This document shows positions 42,241-49,234 of a stretch of 64,000 bases of DNA, piece by piece. How positions within the stretch are numbered: the first letter of the stretch is position 1; every line of letters begins with the position of its first letter. Below the pieces are notes generated by a model. That model made no database searches. It was given only the letters and a program-made list of their open reading frames with translations, and was not told where the DNA came from. The stretch is from Halococcus saccharolyticus DSM 5350. GTDB lineage: Archaea; Halobacteriota; Halobacteria; Halobacteriales; Halococcaceae. Where the stretch lies: NCBI RefSeq assembly GCF_000336915.1, contig NZ_AOMD01000015.1, forward strand, positions 1 through 64,000. Direction: 5' to 3'. A program made the translations under genes and the position numbers.

Positions 42241-43000
42241 GGCACTGCTAGATTGAGGTTGAACTGAGCGGAGTTCTTCGAGGCGGTTGGAACCATGCTC
42301 GAAGAACTCCAGGTAGAGGTCACGAACTGCTCGGATGTGCCGTTTTTGGACACGGATCGGACGAGCACGCCAGCCTGGTTGATCAGGCTGGCGTGCGCTG
42401 CTCACGCCGCCGCAGCGTCGCTGGCGGAGTGCTGCGACCTCTGCGAGTGGTTCGGCGTCAGCCGAACCCGAGCCGCCATCCACCACTGGTACCAGTCATA
42501 CGCTGAACACTACGACCAGGACTTCACCGCCGAACCTGATCGTGTCGCCGTCGACGAGAAACAGATCCAACTCGAAGAAGAGCGGAAGGTCTGGCTCTAC
42601 GCCGCTATCGATGTCGATTCGAAAGTCGTGCTCCACGCACGACTTTCTCAAAATCGCGGCACCGAGCCCGCAACGACATTCTTACGCGAACTCAAAGAGG
42701 AACACCGCGTCTCCGACGCGGAGTTCCTCGTCGACGGCATGGGCTACCTGACGGCACTGGCTAAAACCGATCTTCTCGGCGACCTCAACTACTCCGACCG
42801 GAACATCGTCGAGAAACTGTTCCAGACCTACACCATGCGTGTCGGTCGATTCCACGAGACGTGGAACGGCAGTCAGCCAAGCGCCGAGCGCTGGCTGACT
42901 GCCTACACCGCCTACTACAATCGTCTCAGGAGCCACCAAGCGCTGGAGAATCAGCCGCCGATCGAAGCGCTCGAACGGGAGGGCTCAATCTAGCAGTGCC
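42241..43000 (+). mobile_element. Complete IS6-family insertion sequence
   Basis: 760 bases with perfect 17-bp terminal inverted repeats, GGCACTGCTAGATTGAG at 42241-42257 and its complement at 42984-43000. An 8-bp target duplication GACCGCAT flanks both ends (42233-42240 and 43001-43008). One transposase gene. Intact ends and duplications point to a recent insertion, between the truncated hemoglobin gene and the multicopper oxidase. Confidence 0.95.
42295..42993 (+). CDS. IS6-family transposase
   Basis: 232 residues. N-terminal HTH/zinc-like part (LAECCDLCEWFGVSRTRAAI), DDE catalytic residues in DRVAVDEKQIQLEEERKVWL (D), SDAEFLVDGMGYLTALAKTD (D), and NRLRSHQALENQPPIEALER (E, in the C-terminal helix). 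Stops 7 bases before the right terminal repeat's end. Looks intact and potentially active. Confidence 0.95.
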   Translation: MLEELQVEVTNCSDVPFLDTDRTSTPAWLIRLACAAHAAAASLAECCDLCEWFGVSRTRAAIHHWYQSYAEHYDQDFTAEPDRVAVDEKQIQLEEERKVWLYAAIDVDSKVVLHARLSQNRGTEPATTFLRELKEEHRVSDAEFLVDGMGYLTALAKTDLLGDLNYSDRNIVEKLFQTYTMRVGRFHETWNGSQPSAERWLTAYTAYYNRLRSHQALENQPPIEALEREGSI

Positions 43001-45815: not shown

Positions 45816-46241
45816 TTAGGACTCAGATTCAGGTGTAGTCGAACTGTCGTACATTTCTTCGAACTCTTGCTCGCCGCGGATCAGTTCATCGATGCCTTCA
45901 CTGAGCGTGACCTCTCCGAACACGGTCGCCCGATAATATGTATATAGTCCGTCCTGTCCTCGCTCGGTGTGCTGGCGCTTCTCAATGAGACCGACATCGA
46001 CGAGCTTGTTGAGGTGGTAGTGGAGGGTGCTGTCATCGATGGATATCACTTCCTCAAGCTCCTTGGGACTCATTTCCCCGCCATGGACGAGCCGGTAGCA
46101 AATCTCGTATCGGGTACGGTGCCCGACGGCGGCGTGCATCTCGAGATACTCATCGAGGCTGAGAATGCCGTCTGTCGGCAGCAGATCTTCTGGGTCATCC
46201 GGAAAGTCCCCGCCGATTGTACGCGTTTGATCGATCGCCAT
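45816..46241 (-). CDS. ArsR-like winged-helix regulator
   Basis: 141 residues from MAIDQTRTIGGDFPDDPEDL. Winged helix: HAAVGHRTRYEICYRLVHGG, then MSPKELEEVISIDDSTLHYH and LNKLVDVGLIEKRQHTERGQ. Longer open frame from 46307 has a non-matching start. Function unknown. It is divergent from the DUF7509-like gene with about 98 bases between and may regulate it. Located immediately upstream of the 7S RNA gene. Confidence 0.82.
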   Translation of the reverse strand: MAIDQTRTIGGDFPDDPEDLLPTDGILSLDEYLEMHAAVGHRTRYEICYRLVHGGEMSPKELEEVISIDDSTLHYHLNKLVDVGLIEKRQHTERGQDGLYTYYRATVFGEVTLSEGIDELIRGEQEFEEMYDSSTTPESES

Positions 46242-46339
46242 CTTGCTCCAGAACACGGGTGGAAGACTCTTAGCCTTTGTCAAGCCAAGAAATTTCGAAA
46301 ACAGCATCTTTTATATTCGCTCCCGAGCAGGAACCACCC

Positions 46340-46960
46340 ATGTCCGTGGAGATTACGCGTGAACTGATCGCCGAGCGGTTGGGGAGCGTGAAATACGACC
46401 GCTTTCTCTTCTACCTGATGGGACCGTACAAGTCATTCAACCTCAGCTACGTCCTCAACGAGGAGGAACGTCGTGAGATCGATATCGAAGACCTCCCTGG
46501 GCCGCTGCGCCGAGTCTTCCAGAACAGGGACGAGATCAACGCAGCGCAGACACTCTTACGGCGGGTGGAGGGAGCGCTTCGGATGACTCCCGGTGTGAAT
46601 GCGTTTCTGGCCCTCGATGTCGAGGTGGACACTAACAATGTAGATGCAGTGACCCAGAGCATCGAGTACACCCGATGCAGCAACGCGACCGCGTTCGTGG
46701 TTCCGTTTCTCGGTCACAACTTCGGCGTCGGAGAAGAAGCCGGAAGCATTCTCGAAAACCTCGCAGAAACACACGGTGATCGATTGGTCTTCGTCCATGA
46801 AGACGACGTGACGAGTGCGATGATTCGATCGGCGAATATGCGGTGGGACCTGCGAGTCGAGACGTACGAAACTGAAGAAGAACTCGTCGCCACTCTCCGA
46901 CGATTCGCGGGCGGCATCATGCAACGCGAACGCCGCGGAGACCTCGAAAGTCTGGACTGA
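46340..46960 (+). CDS. DUF7509-like protein
   Basis: 206 residues from MSVEITRELIAERLGSVKYD. Key segments: FLFYLMGPYKSFNLSYVLNE near residue 25, ATAFVVPFLGHNFGVGEEAG near 130, and LAETHGDRLVFVHEDDVTSA. The MGPY motif near the N-terminus and a Glu-containing GHNFGVGEE loop recall nucleotide-processing folds of the TIR/nucleoside-deoxyribosyltransferase class, but this is only a pattern; the biochemistry is unknown. Haloarchaea-restricted family. Divergent winged-helix gene upstream; AT-rich PIN-like gene downstream. Confidence 0.7.
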   Translation: MSVEITRELIAERLGSVKYDRFLFYLMGPYKSFNLSYVLNEEERREIDIEDLPGPLRRVFQNRDEINAAQTLLRRVEGALRMTPGVNAFLALDVEVDTNNVDAVTQSIEYTRCSNATAFVVPFLGHNFGVGEEAGSILENLAETHGDRLVFVHEDDVTSAMIRSANMRWDLRVETYETEEELVATLRRFAGGIMQRERRGDLESLD

Positions 46961-47078
46961 TCGAGATGCAAGATGAGACTATACCATGTATAGATCCCAT
47001 GCGTAATTCATATATTTCGACAGTTAGGGCGGCTTGAGCTGTAAAGTAAAGACCATCCATCGCGATTGACCTACAAGC

Positions 47079-48164
47079 ATGTCTCAAGACTCGGATTTTG
47101 GACTTATAACCGTGCTCAAGATGCACTACCATGCTGCTCATCAGATGTTGAAAGAGGCATGGGATATGCCGGAAATCGAAAAGGATATGGATATTGTATA
47201 TTTGGACCAGAAGCAGTGGATCCAACTTTCTGAACAACGCCGAGGCAACACATCTGATCCTGAAATAGCGGAAGTACTGGAGTTGATAGAGCGAACGTCT
47301 TCAGCAGGCAAGGCTGTTTATCCGCTTTCTATTATCCATTTGATCGAAACCGCCTCACGATCAGATGATGATAGTCGTATGGATCTTCTTGACCTCATGT
47401 GTGATATTTCTAATCTTTACACTATATCTCCGGCTACTGATATAGAAAGGAAGGAAGTAGAGCTATTCGTCGAAAGAGAACAAGAGAAAGATCCAGATGT
47501 ACGAAACCAGATTTTTCAGAGGGGGATTGCCCATTCCATATTGGGAAAAGACGAGAATGCATTTCAAAATTTGAATGAATTAGATGAAGATAGAGCTGAC
47601 TTAGTACGCGCTCTTATGCGGTCAAAGTACGGATTTAAGCTGGTATTTGGCCATCAGTCTATGCTACCAAAATTGAGTGATAGAAGCTACGAACTTGAAT
47701 TGAAGGAATTTGCTGATCAGAGATTGTTCAACTATGATGACTTGGACCCCGACGAATATAAACGATTCATGCGGAGGAACATGGTTGGATACTTTAACGA
47801 CAATATTCGGCCACTCATCAACCAAGTATGTGATACGCGAGGTGTTGCTGTTAGTATACCTAATGTCGGAGAGATGAGGTCCTGGATCAGGGGCGACGAT
47901 AATGAAATAGGTGAATTTCTCCGTCAGTTTCCTATGATGTACATCCATTTGACGCTGACCTTTTCACGAAATGTCGAATTAGAGGGTACTATCGATAGAA
48001 ACGATCTCAATGATCTCATGTCACTAAGTCCTGCAATTGCTTACTCAGACATCGTTTTGACGGAACAAGATTGGACGAGGAGATACTTTACGAGCAATCT
48101 CAACCAGGATTTTGACACAATTGTGAGGGATGATCTCCTCAAACTCCCCGAGCACCTTGACTGA
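47079..48164 (+). CDS. PIN-like domain protein in an AT-rich island
   Basis: 361 residues, clearly more AT-rich than its neighbours, so likely acquired. Segment DMDIVYLDQKQWIQLSEQRR looks like PIN strand 1 (xxLDxNxW), SIIHLIETASRSDDDSRMDL is a polar helix, and PAIAYSDIVLTEQDWTRRYF resembles the C-terminal PIN acidic motif (D in a strand, then D/E). These suggest a metal-dependent ribonuclease, but the family is unrecognised. No obvious antitoxin partner next to it. The region between 46961 and 47078 is AT-rich non-coding. Function not established; candidate defence or toxin gene. Confidence 0.55.
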   Translation: MSQDSDFGLITVLKMHYHAAHQMLKEAWDMPEIEKDMDIVYLDQKQWIQLSEQRRGNTSDPEIAEVLELIERTSSAGKAVYPLSIIHLIETASRSDDDSRMDLLDLMCDISNLYTISPATDIERKEVELFVEREQEKDPDVRNQIFQRGIAHSILGKDENAFQNLNELDEDRADLVRALMRSKYGFKLVFGHQSMLPKLSDRSYELELKEFADQRLFNYDDLDPDEYKRFMRRNMVGYFNDNIRPLINQVCDTRGVAVSIPNVGEMRSWIRGDDNEIGEFLRQFPMMYIHLTLTFSRNVELEGTIDRNDLNDLMSLSPAIAYSDIVLTEQDWTRRYFTSNLNQDFDTIVRDDLLKLPEHLD

Positions 48165-48479
48165 CTTTGTGATCTCACGCATCTAAACAAGGTCCATAGC
48201 ACGCATCGGTAAAAAATAATAATATAGATAAATCTAATCAGAGATGGCTGAAATTCGATTGAATAATTTTAAGTTATCTAAATCGTTTCAGGAAGCACAC
48301 TACCCATACCACTGAACAGAGATCCAAAATACGCTCTCTTTATTTCACACTCTAACTTCAACAAGTCAAAATCTATAATAAGAAAATCCCGAAGATCAGT
48401 TAGTAGTCCCTATACCCCCGATTCAGGATTGTCGATACTCGTCGCAAAACACATAGCGATAGGAGACCAAGCGACGTAT
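48165..48479. other. AT-rich intergenic region
   Basis: About 315 bases of strongly AT-rich sequence after the PIN-like gene (for example GGTAAAAAATAATAATATAG). No gene with a recognisable product, no terminal repeats. T/A tracts near 48210-48235 could serve as a terminator and the stretch near 48440 as promoter for the next gene. Its base composition marks the edge of an acquired segment. Confidence 0.6.
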
Positions 48480-48983
48480 ATGTCTAAGGAGGTGCAGCAC
48501 GCGTCTACCGTCACCGATGACAGCAGTGGTGGTAAGACTGCTTTCCCAGAGCACGAGATGGATGCCGCCCGCCTCAGTGATCTCCGCGCGATTCTCACCC
48601 AGACAAAGGTCCGCCTCCTTCAGCAGATTCTCGCCAGTCCCACCGGTGCGTTGAGCGCCGTTGAGCTTGCCGCACGGAACGACATCACCGAGAGCACCAT
48701 CCGTGACCACCTCCGCGATCTCGCCCACCGCGACGATTCCATCATTCAGACGATGGATGCCGAGACGGACGATCCCGTTCCAAACGGAATTCCGCGAAAA
48801 TACTACGCTGTCACCGAATACGGTATCGACTTGCTCAACCAGGTCGGGCTCTACGAACAGATTGGAATTCTCTACGATATGTACGAAGCGGCGGACCTCA
48901 ACCTCCCCGATGCAGACGATCGTCCAGTCACTATTCATGATATCGAAGCGTATGAGCACCGCCCGACGCCAAACTGGCTGTGA
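48480..48983 (+). CDS. Winged-helix transcription regulator
   Basis: 167 residues from ATG 48480 (MSKEVQHASTVTDDSSGGKT). Winged-helix/MarR-ArsR type: LRAILTQTKVRLLQQILASP, SAVELAARNDITESTIRDHL, RDLAHRDDSIIQTMDAETDD with KYYAVTEYGIDLLNQVGLYE. Typical of haloarchaeal ArsR-like regulators (DUF-type HTH). No ligand residues stand out. Close to the NarO-like gene but no operon. Confidence 0.82.
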   Translation: MSKEVQHASTVTDDSSGGKTAFPEHEMDAARLSDLRAILTQTKVRLLQQILASPTGALSAVELAARNDITESTIRDHLRDLAHRDDSIIQTMDAETDDPVPNGIPRKYYAVTEYGIDLLNQVGLYEQIGILYDMYEAADLNLPDADDRPVTIHDIEAYEHRPTPNWL

Positions 48984-49048
48984 ACCTCTTTCACCTACTC
49001 AGGGAGCGGAACTTCGAGTGATTCAGGAATGTTCTTGTTACCACAGGC

Positions 49049-49234
49049 TCACCTACTGTGGTTACTGAACGCCTCTGTCGATATCGGGCCACCACAGGCG
49101 ACACAGCCCGACGCGAGTAATAGCTCCATCATATCGGCGTCGACTTGGACGTACTCGCCGCAGTGCGGACATCGGAAATCATACCGCTGGCCTGCACCCC
49201 TGCTCGTCACGAGCAATCTCTTCGAGTACACCAC
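49049..49234 (-). CDS. DUF7560-like zinc-ribbon protein
   Basis: 61 residues as read from GTG 49234; core GQRYDFRCPHCGEYVQVDAD and LLLASGCVACGGPISTEAF with two CxxC pairs. The start may be slightly downstream. Haloarchaeal small zinc-ribbon family of unknown function. Convergent neighbours only. Confidence 0.65.
   Translation of the reverse strand: MVYSKRLLVTSRGAGQRYDFRCPHCGEYVQVDADMMELLLASGCVACGGPISTEAFSNHSR

Follow-up and report, generated by a model that had tools for sequence, protein, structure and literature searches.

Members of the PIN superfamily, such as VapC (PF01850) and the FEN, Exo1 and Xrn2 nucleases, have an acidic residue ending strand 1, a glutamate in helix 3, a pair of aspartates opening a late helix and a further acid after the next strand. 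The protein encoded by the AT-rich gene of the locus described here appears to share these features in its predicted structure, and PIN/FEN nucleases recur as non-significant neighbours in Foldseek lists; hereafter we call it the PIN-like protein. Unlike VapC, it is more than twice the length, carries a large helical insert and has a motif of its own, and it shows no significant profile match to PF01850 and no conserved antitoxin gene. The adjacent DUF7509 protein may have its nearest described counterparts in nucleoside 2-deoxyribosyltransferases (PF05014) and TIR-like proteins, with which it shares a conserved (F/Y)xxGxY start and an SN-x(9-11)-GxGxExG element, the Glu of which is in register with the catalytic Glu of the deoxyribosyltransferases. 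DISARM, type IIG restriction-modification (RM), SIR2/Dsr1 and Qat loci are each adjoined by relatives of the PIN-like gene, but this gene is a recognized component of none of them, and none adjoins the copy described here.

We analysed a window of 64,000 nucleotides from Halococcus saccharolyticus DSM 5350 (contig NZ_AOMD01000015.1). The original prediction had read the DUF7509 and PIN-like genes as a possible defence pair or effector cassette. Based on comparison with related genomes, the two are unrelated units that have been juxtaposed, not a working pair. The explanation that we favour, with moderate confidence, is that an old DUF7509/ArsR-like unit came to stand beside a recent insert bearing a lone, mobile PIN-like nuclease of the toxin or defence type together with an orphan winged-helix gene. 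The features of the locus are as follows.

45816..46307, minus strand: ArsR-like winged-helix regulator, divergent partner of DUF7509 (Pfam HTH_20, E 3e-13)
46340..46960, plus strand: DUF7509 protein, 206 aa, outside the insertion (PF24349, E 2e-91)
46986..49048, no strand assigned: insertion or replacement block, 2063 bp, 45.5% GC (blastn of the window against locus L023)
47079..48164, plus strand: predicted PIN-like nuclease gene, 361 aa, AT-rich (family alignments, AlphaFold2 model and Foldseek lists)
48429..48983, plus strand: winged-helix regulator within the insert (HTH_20, E 6e-5, below its cut-off)

Layout of the locus and the empty site

The DUF7509 and PIN-like genes lie on the same strand with 118 bp between them, and their open reading frames fall exactly at the coordinates listed above. 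An AT-rich gap of 264 bp separates the PIN-like gene from the winged-helix gene at 48429-48983. The PIN-like gene has a GC content of 0.42 and a GC3 of 0.435, compared with a GC3 of 0.644-0.808 in twelve other genes of the window (0.684 for DUF7509 and 0.663 for the winged-helix gene of the insert). The locus is embedded in what we take to be a denitrification region, including genes for a multicopper oxidase, a halocyanin-like protein, a Rieske protein, cytochrome b, narG and narH, all named by reading of the sequence; the genes flanking the PIN-like gene in the window are assigned to denitrification and none to defence. A transposase-like open reading frame near the locus (42295-42993) gave weak matches to rve_3 and DDE_Tnp_IS240, both below cut-off.

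An empty-site relative was identified in one genome only, at locus L023 (genome G002, contig 88) of the same genus. This locus carries no PIN-like gene and has the same gene order as the window, namely, ArsR-like regulator, DUF7509, zinc-ribbon gene and DmsR. In the blastn comparison, the two sequences showed 93% DNA identity up to position 46985 and again from position 49049, over flanks of 2130 and 1060 bp. Between these flanks, the window holds 2063 bp (46986-49048), which include both the PIN-like and the winged-helix gene, and L023 holds 185 bp that have no clear counterpart in the window. The empty site thus shows directly that the PIN-like gene is an insertion and, because the inserted block starts after DUF7509, that the DUF7509 gene lies outside it. 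The AT-rich insertion proposed in the original prediction is therefore borne out by both base composition and the empty site. At the ends of the block, we found no flanking direct repeats or terminal inverted repeats of the insertion-sequence type, but only short repeats at chance level. Taken together, the PIN-like gene has probably landed recently beside DUF7509, as a probable mobile nuclease gene.

DUF7509 and its divergent regulator

The protein encoded at 46340-46960 matched PF24349 over its full length (positions 1-206 of 206; 305.5 bits against a cut-off of 27), confirming its assignment to DUF7509, and it is an ordinary member of this family, without differences from the other members. 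Its LMGPY (residues 26-30) and GHNFGVGEE (residues 125-133) motifs are both conserved across the family, in which G28, Y30, N115, G125, G129, G131 and E133 are invariant. A paralogue with 45% identity is encoded elsewhere in the same genome, and Haloferax volcanii also carries a member. DUF7509 was detected in 41 records of haloarchaeal replicons filed as plasmids, but searches of phage records and of viral contigs gave no DUF7509 match. A PADLOC search gave no match for the protein at E <= 1, a PDB sequence search with the family profile gave nothing credible, and a literature search on DUF7509 found no papers.

The two motifs had been likened in the original prediction to NAD-processing folds. 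Alignment of the DUF7509 profile with haloarchaeal PF05014 by hhalign gave a probability of 10-12% (P 0.0025-0.003), which is below significance, compared with mostly 86-93% for control pairs of deoxyribosyltransferase against TIR or TIR-like profiles within the fold; one control (NDT2 against TT, two small sets) gave 0.8%. In this alignment, GVGEEAG of DUF7509 was paired with the GTAAEIG segment of the deoxyribosyltransferases, which holds their catalytic Glu. A relationship to TIR found no support by hhalign (probability 0.2%), and a single-sequence AlphaFold2 model of DUF7509 reached a pLDDT of 41. Of the proposed likeness, the conservation of the motifs and a weak deoxyribosyltransferase register have thus held up, and the TIR side has not. 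We regard the deoxyribosyltransferase likeness, as judged from sequence profiles, as a weakly supported lead and not as membership.

The most constant feature of DUF7509 is its upstream neighbour. An ArsR-like winged-helix gene was situated directly upstream of DUF7509, in divergent orientation, in all 47 loci checked, comprising the 31 first fetched and 16 picked for divergence, down to 23% identity. In the window, the start codons of the two genes are 32 bp apart. Downstream of DUF7509, the neighbouring gene varies from one genus to another. The coupling in 47 of 47 loci identifies the ArsR-like regulator and DUF7509 as a true two-gene unit, which is old in haloarchaea; its constant divergent partner is described here for the first time. 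The unit occurs, strictly conserved, in roughly half of haloarchaea, and the conserved regulator partner is the by-product of the analysis that holds more interest. The divergent layout suggests that the ArsR-like regulator likely controls DUF7509, for which binding or cleavage of a nucleoside or a nucleotide is a possible function. As a side observation, the divergent arrangement was kept even in members at 23-30% identity.

A comparable arrangement was seen for the second winged-helix gene. Eight of the closest relatives of the gene at 48429-48983 (L065-L072) are divergently paired with a member of an unnamed family, here P66. This family is absent from the window, so that the winged-helix gene of the insert represents an orphan half-unit. 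Three members of P66 were scanned against Pfam, and no family scored above cut-off. The motif layout of P66 (YFxLGxYD ... DNDGGHELELG; for example, L066:2092-2703) resembles that of DUF7509.

Spread and predicted fold of the PIN-like family

Searches of the PIN-like gene against Pfam, NCBIfam, PADLOC and PHROGs gave no confident match (for PADLOC, none at E <= 1), in agreement with the original statement that it has no known family, and a PDB sequence search with the family profile gave nothing credible. The gene nevertheless belongs to an uncatalogued family distributed across archaea, bacteria and viruses, with at least 30 members that keep the conserved acids. Homologues were identified on plasmids of Halomicrobium, Halobacterium, Natrinema, Rhodococcus and Mycobacterium, in the haloviruses HJTV-1 and HSTV-3, the Pseudomonas Pf phage PfAC03 and viral contigs, and, in a scan of genome contigs with a 4-row alignment, in bacteria from Actinomycetota to Anaerolineales, Colwellia and Phycisphaerae. 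Among the haloarchaea, the family was found in 9 of 196 relatives, a count that includes the genome of the window. Divergence among the haloarchaeal members is 25-29%.

In a 20-row alignment of the family, Y41, L42, D43, Q44, W47, P82, E90, E126, D309, D312 and Y322 were invariant, and S84, H87, N308 and E329 were conserved at 90% or more, giving the motif YLDQNxW...lPlSxxHxxET...NDxxDmxxL...Y. The acids D43, E90, D309 and D312 remained invariant even among relatives at 16-25% identity, which exceeds chance, and the acidic motifs noted in the original prediction are thereby substantiated. The actinobacterial members (L086-L097) have an extra N-terminal domain of approximately 80-100 residues before the YLDQNxW motif.

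The AlphaFold2 model of the PIN-like protein had a pLDDT of 82.5 and a pTM of 0.85. In the N-terminal part, a strand (residues 38-42) ending at D43 is followed by two helices, a helix (85-92) with E90 and a strand (114-116). A helical insert of approximately 185 residues (about 119-305) separates this part from the C-terminal part, in which a helix (307-322) opens with N308/D309 and D312 and is followed by a strand (325-327) and then E329. The order of elements in the model is therefore b1-D43, a3-E90, b3, insert, a5-D309/D312 and b4-E329, which appears to correspond to the established PIN order, interrupted after strand 3 by a large insertion that precedes the last catalytic helix. On this basis, D43, E90, D309 (or D312) and E329 are candidate catalytic acids.

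Foldseek searches with the model against the PDB and viral lists gave no match at E < 0.001, the best being at E 0.69 and the PIN/FEN matches at E 1-6. Among these non-significant matches, the PDB list contained Rad2, Exo1 (seven entries), VapC15, VapC21, VapC4 and Xrn2, and the viral list contained XRN, Vhs, PIN_53EXO and 5'-3' exonucleases. In hhalign, the family aligned with haloarchaeal PF01850 at a probability of less than 1%, with or without the insert; the best local alignment, also non-significant, pairs the strand-1 Asp motifs of both families. Because neither the profile nor the Foldseek test was significant, the PIN assignment is inferred from structure, and homology to PIN proteins is at present topological only. 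The structure prediction that had been proposed as a check thus supports the PIN-like order of elements without a significant match to a PIN family.

Genomic setting and alternative readings

Several relatives of the PIN-like gene have defence genes as neighbours. The member on a Rhodococcus plasmid adjoins drmA/drmC of DISARM, that of HJTV-1 adjoins a type IIG RM gene, and that of L079 is flanked by a type IIG RM gene on one side and AbiEii on the other. The members in L091 and L098 adjoin a SIR2 Dsr1-like gene and a QatC-like gene, respectively, and Abi and ImmA/IrrE genes also occur beside the family. DUF4365 stands divergently beside the PIN-like gene in two haloarchaeal elements and beside a broken copy in a third. 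Other relatives have no defence neighbours. PADLOC families numbered 229 near PIN-like relatives and 126 in a control set of DUF7509 neighbours, but both counts are inflated by a few multi-hit RM genes, so that defence enrichment is not shown statistically. From its neighbours, a defence or mobile setting of the family is plausible, and the family is probably conflict-related.

Two alternatives would give the PIN-like gene a partner within the locus. The cassette of the original prediction, in which a nucleotide-sensing or NAD-processing DUF7509 protein activates the nuclease, would account for two adjacent genes on one strand, 118 bp apart, and for the weak deoxyribosyltransferase-like register of DUF7509. 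The distribution of the two families largely refutes it, being wide and unlinked, which the original prediction had itself named as a refutation: DUF7509 is present in 94 and the PIN-like family in 9 of the 196 relatives, both counts including the genome of the window, and among the six genomes with both, the two genes are adjacent only in the window's own and never in G005, G022, G054, G073 or G123. Moreover, the boundary of the insertion falls between the two genes, their base compositions are very different, DUF7509 occurs without the PIN-like gene in L023 and its partner is always the ArsR-like gene instead. On the linkage counts and the empty site we reject a two-gene cassette, and activation of this kind is highly improbable. 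A second pairing, in which the PIN-like and winged-helix genes moved as one toxin-antitoxin-like unit, would fit their shared orientation within the 2063 bp insert, as well as the weakly similar winged-helix genes that lie approximately 6 kb from the PIN-like homologue in G073 and approximately 25 kb from that in G022. We consider it quite unlikely, given the difference in GC3 (0.66 against 0.44), the AT-rich gap between the genes, the pairing of the L065-L072 winged-helix genes with P66 and not with the PIN-like gene, and the lack of such a neighbour in most PIN-like relatives. A small antitoxin gene of the VapBC type was also not found upstream of the PIN-like gene in the window, where the upstream neighbour is DUF7509, outside the insert.

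The remaining alternatives concern the function of the PIN-like protein itself. Its conserved acids could belong to a different Rossmann-like fold, for example that of a phosphatase or of a binding domain, as the lack of a significant PIN match in profile and fold searches would allow; the agreement of element order and acid positions with PIN, and the recurrence of PIN/FEN nucleases in both fold lists, make such a non-nuclease unlikely. Somewhat more probable, although still doubtful, is that the protein serves housekeeping or plasmid maintenance as an RNase, or acts as an RNA processing factor of mobile elements, with no role as toxin or in defence. Some plasmid and chromosomal relatives indeed have no defence neighbour, and a halovirus copy adjoins ribonucleotide reductase, but the patchy distribution (9/196), the divergence between haloarchaeal members and the repeated defence neighbours favour an accessory role in conflict.

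We therefore prefer the reading of two juxtaposed units, the first being the old haloarchaeal module of DUF7509 and its divergent ArsR-like regulator, and the second being the recent 2.06 kb insertion with the lone PIN-like gene and the orphaned winged-helix gene. For the PIN-like protein, the most likely identity is that of a metal-dependent nuclease of the toxin or defence type, mobile and acting alone. Metal-dependent nuclease activity is likely, and would be carried by D43, E90, D309/D312 and E329 clustered on the predicted Rossmann-like core; RNA is the probable target, with less certainty. The gene would travel as cargo of plasmids, proviruses and defence islands, and a role as a toxin or an abortive-infection type effector is plausible. 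More speculatively, the helical insert may provide substrate recognition or keep the protein inactive until triggered.

The apparent gene pair was thus resolved into its true parts by direct evidence from the empty site, and an uncatalogued cross-domain PIN-like family, for which no Pfam, NCBIfam or PADLOC entry was found, recurs beside known defence systems. As a tentative generalization, possible but rather unlikely to hold in both its parts, DUF7509/ArsR-like and P66/winged-helix pairs may form a haloarchaeal class of two-gene nucleotide-sensing or -processing systems, in each of which a DNA-binding partner accompanies a protein resembling deoxyribosyltransferases, and the YLDQNxW proteins may be an unrecognized large-insert PIN family of stand-alone defence effectors in archaea, bacteria and viruses.

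Among individual loci, L042 and L052 share a haloarchaeal element in which an ArdC-like gene accompanies DUF4365 and the PIN-like gene, and on the Natrinema plasmid L059, DUF4365 lies beside the broken PIN-like copy. In L098 (7110-10023), the PIN-like gene is located near a recombinase-like gene, followed by an uncharacterized gene and the QatC-like gene, possibly representing a Qat-type variant.
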